A stretch of DNA of 35,751 nt, taken from positions 1-35,751 of IMG/VR virus record IMGVR_UViG_3300046002_002846; one strand, written 5' to 3'. Source of the DNA: a virus. Positions within the stretch are counted from its first letter, which is position 1. Each line of letters starts with the position of its first letter. Below are positions 15,279 to 34,354 of the stretch, piece after piece. The notes under the pieces were generated by a model that searched no databases, had not been told where the DNA came from, and worked only from the letters and a program-made list of their open reading frames with translations. The translations under genes and the position numbers were made by a program.

Positions 15279-15737
15279 CTATACATAGATGATTTCAGTA
15301 AACCCTTCTGCTAGCGTAGGTTCTTCCCATCCTGAAATCATGCTTCGCATCACATAGTCTGGAATATTCTTACCAGAACGACTGGCTAAACGCTTGGCTA
15401 ATTCTTCACTTTCAGGGGTACGACACACCACCGCAATATGCTCATAGTTAGGCAGCATGTTGAACTTCTTCTTACGGCTATTCACTGTGGTACTAGTTTG
15501 ATCCCAGATAATGTCTTTGCCCGCAGTTCGTGCAGCTACTACATCCTGAGCCATTAGTTCCACTGCTCGTGGCATGTGTTCTTTGAAAACTTCATTGTAT
15601 GTTTTGCCCATTAGAGTGGCATAATCTTCAACATGATTATCAGTGCTTACAAGAACACAATAAAGGGGCCAGTCTTGTGCTGCAACCCAGGTACTTTTAC
15701 CTGATCCCGGCACGCCAATCAATTGATAACACTTCAT
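15279..15737 (-). CDS. Polynucleotide kinase-like P-loop enzyme
   Basis: The start at 15737 (MKCYQLIG) follows AAGGAAC. GVPGSGKST (residues 8-16) is the Walker A loop, and DQTSTTVNSRKKKFNML (about 94-110) matches the lid region of 5'-kinase domains of T4 Pnk type. The 152 residues correspond to the kinase half only; no phosphatase domain is fused. With the RNA ligase upstream in the same operon it probably phosphorylates 5'-OH RNA ends for sealing. Confidence 0.8.
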   Translation of the reverse strand: MKCYQLIGVPGSGKSTWVAAQDWPLYCVLVSTDNHVEDYATLMGKTYNEVFKEHMPRAVELMAQDVVAARTAGKDIIWDQTSTTVNSRKKKFNMLPNYEHIAVVCRTPESEELAKRLASRSGKNIPDYVMRSMISGWEEPTLAEGFTEIIYV

Positions 15738-15748
15738 TTTATGTTCCT

Positions 15749-15982
15749 TCAAAGCCACTTGCCACTAATTGTGTTTTTTAAACTCTCAATTTCTTCTGCC
15801 GCTTCTTCTAACAATTCGGCAATACGATCTGGTTTACCTTCAGCTACACTTTTGCGGCTTTGAATCTGCCTACGAATCTCTGCCCGCTTACGCAAGCGAA
15901 ATACTAGGCTTTGTTGTTCCACGGGCAAGTGACTTTCATCATTTGCCATGTGTTCCTCAAATCGGTCAAATTCTTCGTTCAT
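15749..15982 (-). CDS. Hypothetical helical protein in RNA-repair operon
   Basis: 77 residues, mostly charged helices (MNEEFDRFEEHM...ELLEEAAEEIESLKN), likely coiled coil. It lies between the RNA ligase and kinase genes with an ATGA overlap to the ligase, so it may be a small accessory of the repair enzymes. No family recognised. Confidence 0.7.
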   Translation of the reverse strand: MNEEFDRFEEHMANDESHLPVEQQSLVFRLRKRAEIRRQIQSRKSVAEGKPDRIAELLEEAAEEIESLKNTISGKWL

Positions 15983-16863
15983 ATTGTCTCCATATAATTA
16001 CGCACCCACTCTAATCGTTCTTGCTCAGTCTTTGCAGTATATGATTCTATGTCAGCTTGGATTGCAGAAAGCAAAGGATAATATTCTTCATCAATTTGCT
16101 TCTTGAAATCCTCACGCATCAACTTGTCTGTTCTTGGATTACGGGCAACCCACTTGGAAGTCAAATAGTATGGGCTCTTGATCTTAAAAGATACTCCGTC
16201 ATCAGTGTAAGCAACAAAACCTTCATGTCGGCATTCCTTAGCCATGTCTTGTAATCGTGCCATATTAGTTATTACGCTTTCTGGAGCAAAACACCCAAAG
16301 CTATATCCAAAGTTTATTAGCGCAAAGGTATCGTGCTGCACTGAGCTATGCCAGATATTTTCACGCCAGCCAAGAATGTACATACCTTCTTTTTCAGGAA
16401 CAATGTGTGGGTCATTCTTATGAACGCACTCAAACATAAAAGTATAACCTTCATAACGCTTACAAACTTCAAGATACCGTGCTTCGTCAATCAGTTCACG
16501 AGCCATGTTAACATAGTCGCCATTGGTGCTACCAGTAGTAGACACCAACAGTTTACCGTTGTAAAATGTACATGCAACCATGAAACCGTTTACTTTGCGG
16601 TAAGCGGTAACCTTTGTATCTGGACTCAACACTGGTGCAGACTTTTCTATACCGTAGTTGTAGATTTTCTGGAATGGATAAGCAATCAGATTAAAGTCTT
16701 TATCAATTACTGATCCACGGCAGTGTTCTAGATACTCGTTCCACAGGTTATCGTAAAAAACTTTTTTGCGATATTTGAGCACAAAGATACCATCACCAGC
16801 AGGCTTCATAGAAACCAACCTTGGATTGTCTTCTACATATTGCTTCAATTCAGTTTTTAGCAT
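15979..16863 (-). CDS. rnlA: RNA ligase (T4 Rnl1-like)
   Basis: The start at 16863 (MLKTELKQYV) is chosen for AAAGGACATC before it. The 294-residue protein has the nucleotidyl-lysine motif KVNG (about 90-93, RKVNGFM), CRGSVI and PYPF-K upstream, FECVHKNDPHIV (motif III/IIIa region), EGFVAYT (motif IV) and FKIKSPYY (motif V). That is the order of T4 RNA ligase 1. It joins 5'-P and 3'-OH RNA ends using ATP, classically to repair nicked tRNA anticodon loops. It overlaps the phosphoesterase gene and sits upstream of the kinase. Confidence 0.9.
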   Translation of the reverse strand: MLKTELKQYVEDNPRLVSMKPAGDGIFVLKYRKKVFYDNLWNEYLEHCRGSVIDKDFNLIAYPFQKIYNYGIEKSAPVLSPDTKVTAYRKVNGFMVACTFYNGKLLVSTTGSTNGDYVNMARELIDEARYLEVCKRYEGYTFMFECVHKNDPHIVPEKEGMYILGWRENIWHSSVQHDTFALINFGYSFGCFAPESVITNMARLQDMAKECRHEGFVAYTDDGVSFKIKSPYYLTSKWVARNPRTDKLMREDFKKQIDEEYYPLLSAIQADIESYTAKTEQERLEWVRNYMETI

Positions 16864-17404
16864 GATGTCCTTTAATTTCACCCTTCATTGCGTCTTTGAT
16901 AGCATCTTCCATTGAGATAGCAATCATACCAGTTGCATCCATCCCCATATCACGACAGCGGAACTTTTCCATTCCACTAGGTCCACCGTGCAAGTGACCG
17001 TGAAAATGTACAGCACCGCGATGCATCTGATCCCACTCAGCAATTGGATAATGAAACATAACAACTTTAGTTCCATTGTAGTTGATATCCAAATACTTGT
17101 GTACTTCTTTAAAGCACTTGCGGAATGTAGGATCGTTCAATGCTTTACGGTCATGATTACCTTCAACTAAAATTTTAATGCCGTTACAACGATTCATGTA
17201 TTCGGCTGCCTTTTGAGCAGGCAAGAATGCTACATCACCCAAAATATAAACAAGGTCTGTGGGTTCAATTAAATCGTTCCATTCTCGAACCATTGCTTCG
17301 TTCATATAATCTACTTCATTGCGAAATCGTGCCCGTGATACCGGACAGAACTTCATAATGTTTTGGTGTCCCCAATGTGTATCAGAGGTTATCCATGTTT
17401 TCAT
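16850..17404 (-). CDS. Calcineurin-like metallophosphoesterase
   Basis: 184 residues with all five metal-binding blocks: SDTHWGH (7-13), GDVAF (56-60), GNHD (82-85), FHYP (117-120) and HGHLHG (135-140). This is a two-metal phosphoesterase. In this operon it could remove 3' or 2',3'-cyclic phosphates left by RNases before ligation; that role is inferred from context. ATGA joins it to the small gene upstream. Confidence 0.88.
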   Translation of the reverse strand: MKTWITSDTHWGHQNIMKFCPVSRARFRNEVDYMNEAMVREWNDLIEPTDLVYILGDVAFLPAQKAAEYMNRCNGIKILVEGNHDRKALNDPTFRKCFKEVHKYLDINYNGTKVVMFHYPIAEWDQMHRGAVHFHGHLHGGPSGMEKFRCRDMGMDATGMIAISMEDAIKDAMKGEIKGHHAKN

Positions 17405-18083: not shown

Positions 18084-19499
18084 TTACGCTAAATCGTACC
18101 GACTATTCATCACGGCCTTAAGCATAATTGCCTCGGGGCTAAATGCGTCTGGGTCTGCACCTAATACACTAGCAGCAATTGCTGGAGAGAATCCTGACAC
18201 AAGAGCGGTTCCGCTCTTGTCAAACTTGACTGGAGCGTTTCCGCTTGCATTCAAGTTCCAGAAAACTACCTTAGGCAATTCGTATCCTGCATCAGCATAC
18301 TTACGGGCAATCATTTCCATAGCACTGTCATCATGCTTGACACATTGGTCAAATTGCATATCAGAGAAAATCATCAGTGTTTCAGGCATTTCTGATTGAG
18401 GCACATGATTCTGAACAGCCGTGTTAAGAATTTGAACGAACGCACCATGTAGATTTGTATTCATGCACCAATCAGAACCGACCATTTGGTCAATCTTTTC
18501 ATTGATAGAACCCTTAAGGTTCATCAATCTTGGCTTTTCGCTGAAAGTCAAGAAACAGTCCTTGAACTTACCCTTGTTCTTGTCAGCAAAGTACAATCCC
18601 AATGATACCGCAATTTCTAGGCATGTGGTGTCACCCTTTTGGCCTGCCTTGCAACTCATGGAGCCACTAACATCAACTAGAGGCAACACGCTGGAGTCAC
18701 CAACATAGTCAGGCAATGCATTCCATTGTGCTTCAATAGCACCCAACTCAGTCACTGACCAAGCAGTTACACCGTACCCACCGATACGACCCTTCAACAC
18801 ATCATGCGGGAAGATTGCGCCAGCATTGATCTTCACACCTGCTTCGCCCTTAACCAACTTAGTGATGTACTCAGCATAAGTTGCACCATGACGACCAAAA
18901 GCCTTCTTGTAACGACTATGCGCCACACTTGGAACGTGACTGTAATTGATGTTATCCCAGTCATTGGCACACATTTGTGTTTCAACAACGGTCGTCATAC
19001 CAACCAAAGTTTTACGATATTGCTTTGGGCTCATACCGAAGAAGTCACGAATTTCAGCCGCGATCTTGCCCTTGCGAGGAGTCCATTTTCCTGCAAGGCC
19101 ATTCTTTTGACGCAAGTGATCACCAAGCAAGGTGTAGGCCTTATCCTTCATTTCCTTAGTTTGGAACACTAGCAAATCGTCAAAACGACCAAGTTCAGGC
19201 ACCTTAGTGATAAGGCGAGCGGCATCAGCTGGGTTAGTCTTTTCCAAGTGAGTCAACACTTGACGGAACAATTCACGCTCACCGGCGCCACCACGGACAT
19301 CACGTGCCCATTGAACAATACGCAATGCCAGATCGGCATTTTCAACATAAGCTGCGGTGAATTGAGGGATAATGTTTTTCCCACGACTTGCGCCGATGTT
19401 GTAGAACAAGTCAACACACGAGTTAGCTGTTGACTCACGAGCCTTCATACCATTAGTAGTGCGGGCCTCTTGATTAGCGATTGCTGTTGCGAATTGCAT
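18084..19499 (-). CDS. rsr: Ro60/Rsr-like TROVE-domain RNA-binding protein
   Basis: 471 residues. WARDVRGGAGER (64-75) and KWTPRKG (138-144) fit the TROVE HEAT-repeat ring. DVSGSMS (276-282) is the metal-ion-dependent adhesion site of the C-terminal von Willebrand A domain, the same order as Ro60 and bacterial Rsr. These ring proteins bind Y RNAs on the outer surface and RNA 3' ends through the hole, in RNA quality control. AAAGGAAAC precedes the ATG. A roughly 240-base leader with a structured RNA (E1) and a consensus promoter lies upstream. The RNA-repair operon is immediately downstream. Confidence 0.92.
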   Translation of the reverse strand: MQFATAIANQEARTTNGMKARESTANSCVDLFYNIGASRGKNIIPQFTAAYVENADLALRIVQWARDVRGGAGERELFRQVLTHLEKTNPADAARLITKVPELGRFDDLLVFQTKEMKDKAYTLLGDHLRQKNGLAGKWTPRKGKIAAEIRDFFGMSPKQYRKTLVGMTTVVETQMCANDWDNINYSHVPSVAHSRYKKAFGRHGATYAEYITKLVKGEAGVKINAGAIFPHDVLKGRIGGYGVTAWSVTELGAIEAQWNALPDYVGDSSVLPLVDVSGSMSCKAGQKGDTTCLEIAVSLGLYFADKNKGKFKDCFLTFSEKPRLMNLKGSINEKIDQMVGSDWCMNTNLHGAFVQILNTAVQNHVPQSEMPETLMIFSDMQFDQCVKHDDSAMEMIARKYADAGYELPKVVFWNLNASGNAPVKFDKSGTALVSGFSPAIAASVLGADPDAFSPEAIMLKAVMNSRYDLA

Positions 19500-19586
19500 A
19501 CTGTTTCCTTTCTTAGTTTTTAACAGGTTAATACTAGTTTAATGTCCTAGCAGACACAAATTATGTTGCTGATGCTAACCTAAATT

Positions 19587-19726
19587 TAACAGGATAGTTA
19601 TCTACTTTTTTCTTTTATCGAGGGGAACTGTCGAAACCACTCTATCTACTTAGTCTGGAGTTTGATGTCCAGGGTCAAAGTAGCATTCCAAGTTGATTAA
19701 TTTGATTGCTGCACCTATCCTAAATC
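19587..19726 (-). ncRNA. E1: structured leader RNA, candidate Y RNA of the TROVE gene
   Basis: On the minus strand the element begins TTTAGGATAG-GTG-CAGCAA and ends CTATCCTGTT. The ends pair as AGGATAG/CTATCCT (19715-19721 with 19591-19597). Inside are a CTACTT/AAGTAG hairpin capped by CTGG/CCAG and an arm containing GGTTTCGAC, like a tRNA T-arm. Five relatives in the tRNA array share the stem, the 3-base gap and CAGCAA (see E2-E6). It lies just downstream of the 19744 promoter, where bacterial Y RNA genes are often found. The Y-RNA identity is inference. Confidence 0.6.
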
Positions 19727-19743
19727 TCAGTGTCTAAGCATGT

Positions 19744-19772
19744 ATTATAGCTTAGTTTTGTTTACTTGTCAA
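19744..19772 (-). promoter_or_regulatory. Promoter of E1 RNA and TROVE gene
   Basis: Minus-strand TTGACA (19767-19772), 17-base spacer, TATAAT (19744-19749). The -35 lies within the last codons of the ATP-grasp gene. Confidence 0.9.
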
Positions 19773-22360: not shown

Positions 22361-22469
22361 TCCAATGATAAATATAATTGAACCATAAGATTACGCATTA
22401 TCAGTGAGTAATCAACAATGCATGGAGTCATTGCTGTCTGGTTCGCAACTATTTATCATGGAGAAATAT

Positions 22470-23357
22470 ATGTCAGAAGAAAAAGAATTCAAATCACCTC
22501 TTGTTTCCTGCATCAGATGCAGAGAAGTCAAATCAGCTAGAGGAATTTTTAGCCATTTCATAAAAACACATACTGTTGAGGGGGCCGAAAGAGCTAAATT
22601 AGCTGGAAAATTAGCAGCACCCAAATATAAACAATATTGTGTCAGCAAAAGATCAAAAGTCGTCAGTGCATATGCCGATCACCCTGCAAGATGTTCTCAA
22701 TGCAATTCACCCTTGATATACGACAAAAGAAAAAATAAATTTTGCAATCAATCATGTTCAGCAGTTAACTCCAACAAACTGCGGCCTGCTGGCCATGCTT
22801 CTCGTAAATTAGGGAACGATTCGCGTAGAGAATCTGCCATTCTTAATAATAGTGGGCGCGCTAAACAACCCAAACCAGTCAAAGTAGAAAAACCTCTATA
22901 CACCAAAATAGCACAATGTTGTGCATGTAATAAATTTTTTCCCGGTAGTAGTAAAAGTTGCTCTTTGTCATGCAGATCAATTTTAATGTCAGCCAATAAG
23001 TCTAATGCAGGGATTAAAAAGAATTGCATTGAATACAATGGTGTTAAGTTAGGTTCATCATATGAACTCACTGTTGCTCAAAGTATGGATGCAAATAATA
23101 TTAAGTGGATTAAGCCTAAAGGACTTCGGTATATCGATCCGACAGGTAAACCTAGGACATATTATCCTGACTTTTATCTACCAGAATATGATATATACTT
23201 AGACCCGAAAAATGATTTCTTGATAAACAATCCAAACCCGTATCACGGGTTTATGGACTGCGATAAAATCAAATGGGCTGAAACATTCAATGTCGTAAGA
23301 GTGCTCATCTTGAATAAACACCAACTTGATTGGACCGTCTTCAAGAATCTTATTTAA
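22470..23357 (+). CDS. Homing endonuclease: zinc fingers + PD-(D/E)XK domain
   Basis: The start at 22470 follows GGAGA; earlier in-frame starts lack this. 295 residues. CIRC at 14-17 with later His residues, CSQC at 75-78 with C92/C96, and a CCAC cluster near 150 are zinc-binding modules. The C-terminus has SYEL (about 198), then PDFYLPEYDIYLDPK (233-247), the E...PD...DxK nuclease core seen in some homing endonucleases. It lies on the plus strand between the two halves of a tRNA-Leu and beside an intact tRNA-Leu(TAG). The N-terminal finger resembles the HNH enzyme at 32020. Confidence 0.75.
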   Translation: MSEEKEFKSPLVSCIRCREVKSARGIFSHFIKTHTVEGAERAKLAGKLAAPKYKQYCVSKRSKVVSAYADHPARCSQCNSPLIYDKRKNKFCNQSCSAVNSNKLRPAGHASRKLGNDSRRESAILNNSGRAKQPKPVKVEKPLYTKIAQCCACNKFFPGSSKSCSLSCRSILMSANKSNAGIKKNCIEYNGVKLGSSYELTVAQSMDANNIKWIKPKGLRYIDPTGKPRTYYPDFYLPEYDIYLDPKNDFLINNPNPYHGFMDCDKIKWAETFNVVRVLILNKHQLDWTVFKNLI

Positions 23358-23474: not shown

Positions 23475-23481
23475 AATATAC

Positions 23482-23546
23482 AACAGGATTCGCTTTTTTT
23501 CTGATTAATGGTAGAAATTTTTAGCTTGCTGAAAGAATCCTAAAAC
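23482..23546 (-). ncRNA. E2 element
   Basis: Minus strand: TTTTAGGATTC-TTT-CAGCAA ... GAATCCTGTT. Closing stem AGGATTC/GAATCCT (23535-23541 with 23485-23491) keeps pairing although two bases differ from E4-E6 (GGATGC/GCATCC), i.e. covariation. No tRNA-like insert; about 43 A/T-rich bases lie inside. Confidence 0.6.
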
Positions 23547-24172: not shown

Positions 24173-24451
24173 ATGTTACAGAACAAAGCCCGTATTCCAT
24201 TACATCTACGCCGTAGAGTATTAGAACGAGATGGCTATTATTGTGTTTTTTGTGATGAGGACCTGCGTGATGCTGAGATACACATGGATCATGTTATCCC
24301 AGAATCAAAAGGAGGTCCAACTACATACGATAATCTACAAGTAACTTGCAGAAAATGTAATCTTGCTAAGGGTGTCTTATCGGAAAGTGAATTCACAAAC
24401 CGACTAAGAACACGAGCAATGAACATTTTGAATAAACTTGGAGCGGGATAA
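24173..24451 (+). CDS. HNH endonuclease (92 aa)
   Basis: CVFC (about residues 24-27), HMDHVIPESKGG (the DH of HNH) and CRKCNLAKG form a complete zinc-containing HNH core in 92 residues. Probably a free-standing homing endonuclease. The ATG follows a perfect late promoter by 5 bases with no ribosome-binding site. The last codons and stop overlap the 3' end of tRNA-Gly(TCC) on the opposite strand, so the gene is lodged precisely at that tRNA. Confidence 0.85.
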   Translation: MLQNKARIPLHLRRRVLERDGYYCVFCDEDLRDAEIHMDHVIPESKGGPTTYDNLQVTCRKCNLAKGVLSESEFTNRLRTRAMNILNKLGAG

Positions 24452-26011: not shown

Positions 26012-26754
26012 CCTTTTGGAATAAGTTCTAATCCTGCATCACTATACTTCCCGTCCACTCTAATAGTATATGAGAAGTGAGGTAAAGGATCTACTCCATG
26101 ATAATCCGAAGTATTATAAGCATATAATTTGTAATCTTTAGGTAAAAATATCTTATTGTCATTTAAAGAATCATATATGAATACCGATCTATATCCACCG
26201 GGATTAAAATTAATATGATGATCAAAACCCTCGTACATCGGTTGATCTCTATGACACGGGACTCTTGCTTCAGGCCAAGAGCCATATATGACCACCCTAC
26301 CAATTTCCTTAAATGGCAATTGTTCAATACATTTTTTAGTGTATGGAAACTTTTCAATTATATCAGCCCAAGGATATAAATCTTGAGTTTTAGTTCTAAA
26401 CCAATTTGGTTTTAAATCTAAAATGAAATACCAAGGTATTAAACTTTTATGTTTAAAAAATAAATATTTTCTTTTTTCCATCGGAGACATGTTAGTAAAC
26501 ACACTTTTGTCTCCTGCATAATTAGCTAAAATTGATAATTCAAACTCAGCATCAATTTCTCTTTCTCTAAGTTTAGGAGGTATACCTCCACCAACCATTG
26601 GAAATTTATCAAGATTCGTAGTAGCAAGTGCTATGCAAATTTCCTCATTCATTTTTTCAAAATCAAAATTGCATGAAGCAGTAAAATCTACAAAAGGCAT
26701 TCCATTAATACCATTAATCACGGCTGGGATAAAATTATGTTTTGAATCTATCAT
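26008..26754 (-). CDS. 2OG-Fe(II) oxygenase-like protein
   Basis: 248 residues. RVPCHRDQPMYEGFDHH supplies a likely HxD pair, DYHGVDP a distal His, and SYTIRVDGKY an Arg for 2-oxoglutarate, with a beta-rich jelly-roll context (YRSVFIYDSLNDNKIFLP). Phages carry many such hydroxylases; substrate unknown. AAAGGAAATT precedes the ATG. It follows tRNA-Arg(TCT) on one transcript. Confidence 0.7.
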   Translation of the reverse strand: MIDSKHNFIPAVINGINGMPFVDFTASCNFDFEKMNEEICIALATTNLDKFPMVGGGIPPKLREREIDAEFELSILANYAGDKSVFTNMSPMEKRKYLFFKHKSLIPWYFILDLKPNWFRTKTQDLYPWADIIEKFPYTKKCIEQLPFKEIGRVVIYGSWPEARVPCHRDQPMYEGFDHHINFNPGGYRSVFIYDSLNDNKIFLPKDYKLYAYNTSDYHGVDPLPHFSYTIRVDGKYSDAGLELIPKG

Positions 26755-30952: not shown

Positions 30953-31070
30953 AACAGGATGTTGTGTCTAAGCCGGGACTCGAACCCACGACACGCCCCC
31001 AGCGGGCCGGCCTCTTGAGTGCCTTTCGGCGATGGTAAGAGAAGTTTACTTTTGCTGTACTCATCCTAAA
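30953..31070 (-). ncRNA. E3 element with tRNA-like insert
   Basis: Minus strand: TTTTAGGATGA-GTA-CAGCAA ... CATCCTGTTTTA, closing stem AGGATG/CATCCT. The interior has GCC-GAAA-GGC, GCCC/GGGC and a GTGTC...GACAC arm enclosing GGGTTCGAGTCCC, a T-arm mimic. No acceptor pairing or anticodon arm is found, so it is not a normal tRNA. Layout parallels E1. Confidence 0.6.
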
Positions 31071-31597: not shown

Positions 31598-31601
31598 ATT
31601 T

Positions 31602-31664
31602 AACAGGATGCTGTTTTGCTTTTTTTCAATAAAGTTTGTTTTTCTTGCTGGAAGCATCCTAAAT
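31602..31664 (-). ncRNA. E4 element
   Basis: Minus strand: TTTAGGATGC-TTC-CAGCAA ... GCATCCTGTTAAA; closing stem AGGATGC/GCATCCT (31654-31660 with 31605-31611). Confidence 0.6.
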
Positions 31665-32003: not shown

Positions 32004-32028
32004 TGGACCGCTGGAGTAACTAACTCCC
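32004..32028 (-). pseudogene. tRNA 3' fragment overlapping homing endonuclease end
   Basis: T-arm GGGAG-TTAGTTA-CTCCA, acceptor GCGGTCC, discriminator A and encoded CCA, no 5' partner. The stop codon of the HNH gene lies inside the T-loop. Confidence 0.5.
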
Positions 32029-32880
32029 ACTATATTTAATATCCCACTCTTTAATTCTAGTTAGTAACTCATCTAATAAGATTGAACATTTACTATGTTT
32101 AGATGAATTCTTATTATGCTGCATTAACATGCAATTTGCCGGATGCCTTATAATTTCTGATGCAATATTATTATCAAATCCGTAGCGGACGCTAACCATA
32201 TGATCCCTACTTACCCCAGTTAAATGGTCTCCACGATTTTTCGCTTTATACCATCCGTACTGTTCGACTAATGTAAAGTCAAATTCTGTCGGATAGTCAT
32301 TTAGACTAAACTTAAAGTTACAATCTGTCCGGTAATTTGTTAGGGCAGGCCTTCGCAATCTTGCTGCTAGGCCTCTGCTAATGTTACTGTGTGTTGTTGA
32401 GCAAGATTGGCTACATGTCTTCCTATCCCGTTTTGTATAGTGTTTCGTATATGTAAACGGTGTATTACAATTAATACAATTTTTTGTTATCTCTTCTGGC
32501 GGTTTGTAAATTCTACCACTCAAGGTAGCAGATGTTTGTTGTCTGTGTTCTTCAGTTACAACATGACTATTACTGCATGTCAAAGAACAAAAGTATTTTG
32601 CCTTAGTAGGAAATTGTAAAGCTCGTTCGGTTACACTAAGTGCTACATTGCATTTTTCACACTCCACGGAAAATTTCGTAAGTTCACCAAGTTTCAAATT
32701 GTGAAACTTATCACGACTATCTTTGAGTTTAGCACGGCTTACGGTGTCATTATATTTTCCATTATGTCCACTTGAGTAGTGGGTGGCTCCTAAATGCGCT
32801 CGGGCTACATGAGTATGAATACCCTTTACTGATTTAACTTCCTTGCAGTATATACAACTGCATAATATTTGTTGTTCCAT
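32020..32880 (-). CDS. HNH homing endonuclease with N-terminal zinc fingers
   Basis: 286 residues. N-terminal CIYCKEVKSVKGIHTH is a zinc finger closely like CIRCREVKSARGIFSH of the 22470 enzyme. Two further Cys pairs follow (CEKC, CINC with CSQSC). The C-terminal GVSRDHMVSVRYGF and HPANCMLMQHNKNSSKHSKC form an HNH-type nuclease core. ATG follows CATAAATA by 5 bases. The 3' end runs into a tRNA fragment and another tRNA 3' fragment lies just upstream, as expected for a tRNA-targeting homing gene. Confidence 0.8.
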   Translation of the reverse strand: MEQQILCSCIYCKEVKSVKGIHTHVARAHLGATHYSSGHNGKYNDTVSRAKLKDSRDKFHNLKLGELTKFSVECEKCNVALSVTERALQFPTKAKYFCSLTCSNSHVVTEEHRQQTSATLSGRIYKPPEEITKNCINCNTPFTYTKHYTKRDRKTCSQSCSTTHSNISRGLAARLRRPALTNYRTDCNFKFSLNDYPTEFDFTLVEQYGWYKAKNRGDHLTGVSRDHMVSVRYGFDNNIASEIIRHPANCMLMQHNKNSSKHSKCSILLDELLTRIKEWDIKYSGS

Positions 32881-33165: not shown

Positions 33166-33236
33166 TACCCGGTAGAGGTAACGCTCCTCTGTCTTTCGAT
33201 TATCAGTCGAATGCTCTACTTTTGTGCTAACCGGGT
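33166..33236 (-). tRNA. tRNA-Ile(GAT), unusual T-loop
   Basis: Acceptor ACCCGGT/ACCGGGT, anticodon loop CTGATAA on TTCGA/TCGAA, T-stem AGAGG/CCTCT, encoded CCA. T-loop AGCGTTA has A54/T58. Confidence 0.82.
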
Positions 33237-33652: not shown

Positions 33653-33660
33653 ATTATAAT

Positions 33661-33724
33661 ACAGGATGCTTTTTTGCTTCATTTCAAGTAAAGTTGTATT
33701 TATTTGCTGGAAGCATCCTAAAAC
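33661..33724 (-). ncRNA. E5 element
   Basis: Minus strand: TTTTAGGATGC-TTC-CAGCAA ... AAGCATCCTGT; closing stem AGGATGCTT/AAGCATCCT, 9 bp (33711-33719 with 33663-33671). Confidence 0.6.
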
Positions 33725-34285: not shown

Positions 34286-34291
34286 AAAATA

Positions 34292-34354
34292 TAACAGGAT
34301 GCTTATTTTTCAATTATCATTTGAATTGTTGTATTTGCTGAACGCATCCTAAAA
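34292..34354 (-). ncRNA. E6 element
   Basis: Minus strand: TTTTAGGATGC-GTT-CAGCAA ... GCATCCTGTTATA; closing stem AGGATGC/GCATCCT (34344-34350 with 34296-34302). Confidence 0.6.

Follow-up and report, generated by a model that had tools for sequence, protein, structure and literature searches.

A CAGCAA-bearing RNA family associated with DUF2828-type Ro60-fold proteins of phages and bacteria

The IMG/VR virus record IMGVR_UViG_3300046002_002846 (virus DNA of 35,751 bases, analysed over its whole length and called the window here) encodes a Ro60-fold protein, in whose leader and among tRNA genes we found seven copies (E0–E6) of a structured element. The RNA family to which the elements belong is fixed to one strand and has a covarying closing stem of 7 bp, the invariant hexamer CAGCAA placed exactly 3 nt inside it, an association with Ro proteins of DUF2828 type and, in many long members, tRNA-like modules. 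Since the same protein–RNA pairing recurs in hundreds of phages, in bacteria and in one archaeon, E0–E6 are probably small non-coding RNAs or RNA modules, candidate Y-RNA-like partners of the adjacent Ro protein; for this reading, including the mechanism proposed below, we estimate a probability of about 0.78. That the CAGCAA elements as such are a Ro-partner RNA family is highly probable; the particular functional role that we propose for them is tentative.

An earlier note, made from the sequence of the window, had placed six of these elements (E1–E6) on the minus strand and described a fixed 3-base spacing, an invariant CAGCAA and a distal NNATCCTGT, all of which proved correct on inspection. 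A search with the pattern TTTAGGATNNNNNCAGCAA, allowing up to two mismatches, recovered all six in their places, together with a seventh copy, E0, that had been overlooked in the same leader as E1. Every one of the seven matches is on the minus strand; the plus strand of the window gave none, and neither did a reversed control pattern. All copies are laid out alike: the closing stem of 7 bp is followed after 3 nt by CAGCAA, next come an interior that varies and the closing arm, and a G stands last.

A covariance model of the element (R1) was searched against whole records. Among the short copies, E0 (19520..19585, minus strand, as for all copies below) is located between E1 and the Ro open reading frame (ORF), reads TTTAGGTTAGCATCAGCAA...TATTAACCTGTT, has one mismatch to the pattern and is matched by R1 at E=7.2e-5; in its arms, AGGTTA/TAACCT, GGTT/AACC stands in place of the GGAT/ATCC of the other copies, which is itself a compensatory change. 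E2 (23480..23545; R1 E=4.2e-10) begins just past the CCA end of tRNA-Cys, E4 (31600..31664; E=5.3e-9) is upstream of tRNA-Val(gac) and E5 (33658..33723; E=2.2e-10) is upstream of tRNA-Arg(acg). E6 (34291..34354; E=2.9e-10) lies between tRNA-Gln and tRNA-Glu, its stem beginning 6 nt past the preceding tRNA and the following tRNA being 12 nt further on.

Of the long copies, E1 (19591..19724, ~133 nt, in the Ro leader) matches the pattern, and its weak R1 score (E=0.5) is explained by its long interior. It falls into a clade-specific long class with interiors of 88–146 nt or more, other members being L055:9427-9592, L063:4991-5161 and L042:9491-9660; this leader class of the window's phage clade has the conserved segments CTATGG..TGGAG..GTTGAAGG..GTGATGGCCC and no tRNA-like order. 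E3 (30956..31070) forms five of the six inner pairs, the sixth being A–A (GGATGA/ACATCC); it has no Rfam match, and interiors like its own are also present in the relatives L066, L079 and L099. E3 is the sole element of the window with a recognisable T-arm: of the T-arm-like modules that had been ascribed to both long copies, that of E3 is a clear hairpin, whereas E1 has merely a weak TTTCGA hairpin. Rfam at gathering thresholds identified only tRNAs in the window, with no match to the giant phage RNAs ROOL and GOLLD.

Single elements fold only mildly better than shuffled sequences (z from +0.4 to −2.1), so the case for a structure rests on covariation among relatives. Close relatives of the Ro protein are encoded in 365 IMG/VR stretches, from which 80 loci were analysed; nearly all of these contain elements, essentially always on the sense strand. 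The relatives of the window gave 158 matches to TTAGG-N7-CAGCAA (124 unique), with the closing arm present in 157. When the 3′ arm was picked by sequence alone (CCTGTT), all six positions were paired in 102 of 106 relatives; re-dealing the arms gave a mean of 28 (maximum of 1000: 39). Covariation extends to all seven closing pairs in a set of 47 diverse short elements: 98.8% of alignment cells are paired, both sides are changed in 113 cells, and the covariation value is 0.949, compared with 0.268 in shuffled alignments and at most 0.118 when the arms are slid. The outermost pair, only half constrained by the way the elements were selected, is A–U in 29, U–A in 14 and other in 4. Covariation thus persists in a larger alignment, and the conserved RNA structure that had been read from compensatory stem changes in the window is borne out.

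The protein of the window (471 aa, 18084..19499, minus strand) had been taken for a phage Ro60/TROVE protein. Pfam assigns it to DUF7788 and DUF2828, and PHROGs to phrog_850 (RNA-binding protein, 6.7e-139). The TROVE family PF05731 has no match among 44 family members, in the window protein or in five other DUF2828-positive records, and the vWA_Ro60 profile gives marginal matches only (4 members, best 0.03). Searches of PDB sequences with the single protein and with profile A3 yielded nothing, and profile A2 reached TROVE/Ro60 chains merely at E 0.1–0.56; the Ro assignment therefore rests on the fold. An AlphaFold2 model built on 44 diverse homologs has pLDDT 86 and pTM 0.87 (an earlier model from 21 close homologs, with pLDDT 65, was discarded). 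In a Foldseek comparison with the PDB, the ten best matches are all Ro60/Rsr/TROVE structures (E≤2.4e-7; next match 1.8e-3), including 2i91 (E=7.6e-9), 9kop, 1yvp, 9l5y (Ro60 of Thermus phage phiLo) and 2nvo. The residues of the metal-ion-dependent adhesion site (MIDAS) motif DxSxS...T...D of the vWA domain (D276, S278, S280, T348 and D380) are invariant in A2 and A3. As modelled, the protein is a Ro60-fold protein, a helical-repeat ring with a vWA domain, outside PF05731. The Ro60 half of the former label therefore stands and the TROVE half does not: the protein resembles Ro60/Rsr/TROVE (2i91, 1yvp, 2nvo, 9l5y) in fold, vWA domain and MIDAS residues, but has ~13% identity with them, lacks a PF05731 match and belongs to the DUF2828/DUF7788 family instead. 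The same fold with DUF2828/DUF7788 was also seen in the giant viruses Pithovirus, Mimiviridae ChoanoV1 and Cafeteria roenbergensis virus (BFVD A0A481Z9J2, A0A5B8HXI0 and E3T4S5).

Presence of the RNA follows this protein branch. R1 matched 19 of 19 DUF2828-positive records, the weakest best hit having E=0.0089; seven of the matched phages (KVP40, Ci1, DLP6, BF, OC, PX29 and Milchi, with best E of 1.5e-5 or lower) had contributed no training sequence. In the DUF2828-negative phages T4, T5, phiKZ, CcrKarma, G and RaK2 nothing was found below E=0.6. A second set gave matches in six of six DUF2828-positive records and in none of three negative ones (best E 0.365). Overall, 25 of 25 positive records are matched, and 0 of 12 negative virus records at E<0.09, four of the latter being TROVE-type Ro phages. 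The test runs in reverse as well: when contigs, which are fragments, were chosen solely for the RNA pattern, DUF2828 was present in three of three (L128, L148, L154) and in 9 of 13 others. The co-occurrence across phages that had been proposed as a check is therefore found, with DUF2828 genes and not with those of the TROVE branch. Phages G, crAss001, Gordonia Neville and Streptomyces JustBecause, which carry TROVE-branch Ro, have no element near the Ro gene, and their R1 matches are no better than E=0.09. Near TROVE-branch phage Ro genes, a GNCGAAG-type motif gave one unconvincing hit. We therefore conclude that the RNA tracks the DUF2828 branch rather than Ro in general, the TROVE-branch sample being small (four).

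A search of named phages brought up no relevant near DNA relative of the window. By tblastn, the Ro protein was found in 682 named phage records with hosts from Escherichia, Mycobacterium, Salmonella, Vibrio, Listeria, Staphylococcus, Campylobacter, Enterococcus and others. A strict scanner (six Watson–Crick pairs, 3 nt, CAGCAA, closing arm followed by TG or AG) detected clusters of elements adjoining Ro or within the tRNA array in 11 of 18 named-phage loci, for which shuffling gave 2.85 hits across the entire set. One candidate, KVP40 L207:4957, shares bases with the Ro start codon and was regarded as a chance match; R1 finds a better KVP40 element at 176660-176726. In 70 further independent viral loci the scanner found 171 sense elements and one antisense element, and for hexamers that are anagrams of CAGCAA the median was 1 and the maximum 8.

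Ro proteins with DUF2828 are also encoded in chromosomes or genome bins of Ruminococcus flavefaciens, Lachnospiraceae, Synergistaceae and others, as well as in a Woesearchaeota bin. Strict elements are present in 65 of 80 such, mostly bacterial, loci (146 sense, 0 antisense; anagrams at most 5), and R1 has 69 matches in 32 loci, on the plus strand throughout. In an unbiased scan of hexamers over the 80 loci, CAGCAA ranked first, 31.7% of its occurrences lying inside the architecture; the runners-up were CAGCAT and CAGCAG, and all other hexamers stayed at or below 1.6%. The RNA family that the earlier note had read as Y-like and tied to a phage Ro is thus real, but it is not confined to one phage: it occurs in many phages and upstream of chromosomal Ro genes.

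Location of the elements bears on what they could do. In each of the 48 window-clade loci examined, an element ends at most 120 nt upstream of the Ro start codon (median 33 nt), and in most bacterial loci elements are directly upstream of Ro. This arrangement would be expected if the elements acted in cis to control the Ro mRNA from its leader, by autogenous repression or processing, with distant copies being sponges or remnants. Elements of Felix-like, Staphylococcus and Mycobacterium phages, however, are downstream of Ro, where the Felix-type E. coli phage VpaE1 (L212), for one, has four, and those of many phages are kilobases to tens of kilobases away from it, among tRNAs; the presence of up to eight copies per phage and of tRNA-like inserts would also be unexpected for a simple leader switch. 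We consider leader control unlikely as the whole explanation, and partly compatible with a role as Y-RNA-like partners.

Many elements also lie close to tRNAs: 82 of 317 begin within 20 nt of the end of an upstream tRNA, and for 76 of 317 the next tRNA is no more than 20 nt from their end. The position of many copies, exactly between two tRNAs, is what would be expected of spacer or processing stems that punctuate or insulate a tRNA array and are unrelated to Ro. Such a role is very improbable given that nine DUF2828-negative large phages, several of them tRNA-rich, have no elements, that elements occur upstream of chromosomal Ro genes and that an invariant unpaired CAGCAA suggests a ligand rather than a spacer.

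Under the Y-RNA-like partner reading, most copies would be transcribed with the tRNA array and excised by tRNA-processing enzymes acting on the flanking tRNAs; where elements are within 20 nt of tRNAs, the enzymes that trim the tRNAs would be expected to release the elements too. The predicted Ro-binding site is the closing stem with the CAGCAA strand, on the outside of the Ro ring, and the variable apex would act as the effector. Short A-rich forms may mainly occupy or gate Ro. Forms with tRNA-like parts may attract proteins that handle tRNAs, such as a host exonuclease, the neighbouring RNA ligase and kinase, or a host anticodon nuclease, to which they would be decoys. Through the copies directly upstream of its start codon, Ro would be loaded onto its own transcript and may be regulated. 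Together these would form a particle for RNA quality control, repair or tRNA protection in infection.

The tRNA-like parts were compared with those of YrlA RNAs. Among relatives, 47 long elements have a T-arm and, after it, an acceptor stem that a short loop closes; in 45 of them a D-arm comes next. Shuffles gave ~0.2 expected in all. This order of modules is the permuted order of YrlA. The Rfam YrlA model (RF02553) aligns end to end (1-114/114) on long elements, with scores of 34.8 bits (L076), 47.8 bits (E=1.4e-7, Enterococcus phage EfS3) and 45.7 bits (a Clostridia locus). Other orders were found as well: acceptor hairpin, D, anticodon and T in the Bacillus-type phages L219:3905 and L251:925, and the normal tRNA order inside the closing stem in the bacterial loci L326:2344 and L338:220. 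The variety suggests that tRNAs were grafted repeatedly and independently onto the stem on the Ro side. With YrlA the elements share a Ro-adjacent gene, a stem joining the 5′ and 3′ ends, several copies per genome and a tRNA-like module in long forms; they differ in having short forms with no tRNA module, many copies dispersed among tRNAs and further module orders. With vertebrate Y RNA (RF00019), to which no element has an Rfam match, they share the concept of a stem bound by Ro, with an internal strand that is conserved and an apex that varies. The Ro-bound region of vertebrate Y RNA differs in sequence from the CAGCAA elements.

Several observations weigh against regarding the elements as Y-like partners. 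Long elements fall below the YrlA gathering cut-off (best 47.8 versus 69 bits), and the consensus of the YrlA Ro-side strand, cggCgaAUGCuuggGgaa, is absent from the alignment, where AGGAUACAUACAGCAA (N3-CAGCAA) replaces it. Short elements are covered by no Rfam family in our Rfam searches. No element of the window, which is a fragment, has a clean permuted tRNA module, that of E3 being degenerate. Finally, 16 of the 70 viral and 15 of the 80 mostly bacterial DUF2828 loci have no strict element within the flank examined. The description of the elements as Y-like, tRNA-mimicking RNAs therefore holds in part: they are one RNA family with YrlA topology in long members, yet score below the YrlA cut-off and do not have its Ro-side motif.

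Could the long forms be circularly permuted tRNA genes whose mature products are functional tRNAs? In favour of this are their well-formed T-arm, closed acceptor and D-arm, as well as the complete anticodon arm present in L219:3905, L251:925, L326:2344 and L338:220. Most copies, however, are short and have no tRNA part, the closing stem interrupts the anticodon arm in forms with the YrlA order, and the same closing stem is kept with or without a tRNA-like part, so we hold this to be scarcely probable. Dispersed mobile or palindromic repeats (REP-, MITE- or attC-like) spreading through the array, which multiple copies per genome might bring to mind, are extremely improbable, since most interior bases differ between copies, the stems diverge with compensatory changes, the elements keep to a single strand and, in phages, bacteria and an archaeon alike, their presence follows a single protein branch.

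To a broader proposal that builds on Y-RNA-like partners we give about even odds. It holds that phages, bacteria and at least one archaeon share an uncatalogued RNA family, the dedicated partner of a second, DUF2828-type Ro branch, that tRNA modules were grafted onto it repeatedly in different orders, and that phages produce a multicopy set from their tRNA arrays to protect or repair tRNAs against host nucleases. The Y-RNA-like partner reading itself also gains from the RNA-repair-like neighbours of Ro in the window, which are an AAA_33/polynucleotide-kinase-like protein (15282-15758), a T4 Rnl1-like RNA ligase (15982-16881) and a phosphoesterase (16853-17404), all on the minus strand; they are in line with the view of phage ROT/TROVE proteins as part of RNA repair (PMC7824862). 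For Salmonella it was suggested that Rsr with Y RNA could act in tRNA decay and that the tRNA-like domain of YrlA could competitively inhibit an anticodon nuclease (PMC7790460). Both ideas would fit a phage with a tRNA array.

Our literature searches (DUF2828 with TROVE, and permuted tRNAs with phage) found no paper describing such RNAs. A 2014 report by Chen et al. (RNA 20:1715) is said to describe Y RNAs near Ro60 in phage species. A passage of PMC12282133 cites Chen et al. 2014 for mycobacteriophages, and that paper itself reports, for Listeria phage CKA15, very high transcription from unannotated regions directly upstream of Ro, with Y RNAs as its guess. Since phage Y RNAs near Ro had already been reported or proposed, the statement that a phage Ro with Y-like RNAs had not been seen described was too strong. 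Features that appear to be new are the defining signature, the link of this signature to DUF2828-type Ro across phages, bacteria and an archaeon, the scattering of numerous copies, most of them short, over tRNA arrays, and the different ways in which tRNA modules have been grafted on.

CKA15 shares with the window the protein branch (33.5% identity) and the CAGCAA elements: three of these, preceded by a consensus-like promoter, TTGACA-N17-TATCAT at L213:4571-4599, are directly upstream of the Ro gene CKA15_055 (L213:4623-4883, equal to OR088597.1 25,551-25,291). The RNAs were left undefined in PMC12282133, whose strongest candidate region, 26,236-26,727, is among the most transcribed unannotated RNAs and has three dubious ORFs. 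At L213:3428-3979 (OR088597.1 ~26,195-26,746) we obtained a full-length match to the Rfam ROOL model (90.1 bits, E=8e-17, below the cut-off of 99.1); judged by this match, the region probably encodes a ROOL RNA rather than a Y RNA or siRNA. Purified virions were found to contain the Ro homologue CKA15_055, with 20 peptides and 57% coverage (PMC12282133, Table 1), which would let the phage deliver Ro together with its DNA.

The Ro-like protein of the 682 cultured-phage records, which include phages of E. coli, Salmonella, Listeria and Mycobacterium, is often labelled hypothetical. The signature (stem, 3 nt, CAGCAA, stem, G) points to likely RNA partners in each such phage, so that the RNA bound by a phage Ro, and the siting of Ro by tRNA arrays and RNA-repair genes, become testable in ordinary phages. 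The Ro/Y pairing would also be extended to DUF2828, a family that Pfam does not link by name to Ro.

Some minor observations concern the tRNA arrays. A tRNA at 33166-33236 (minus strand) of the window was scored at 53.3 bits by Rfam and missed by ARAGORN; the array therefore holds at least 32 tRNAs. Two ORFs within it, 22404-23357 (plus strand) and 32020-32880 (minus strand), have a common CxxC N-terminus (CIRCREVKSARG / CIYCKEVKSVKG) and no Pfam match; they are perhaps homing-endonuclease-like mobile genes, alongside the HNH genes at 24173 and 27373. In Citrobacter phage Ci1, a 114-nt ‘tRNA-Pseudo-AAC’ is annotated directly downstream of Ro (L208:6988-7101) and may be a misannotated long RNA or an interrupted tRNA.
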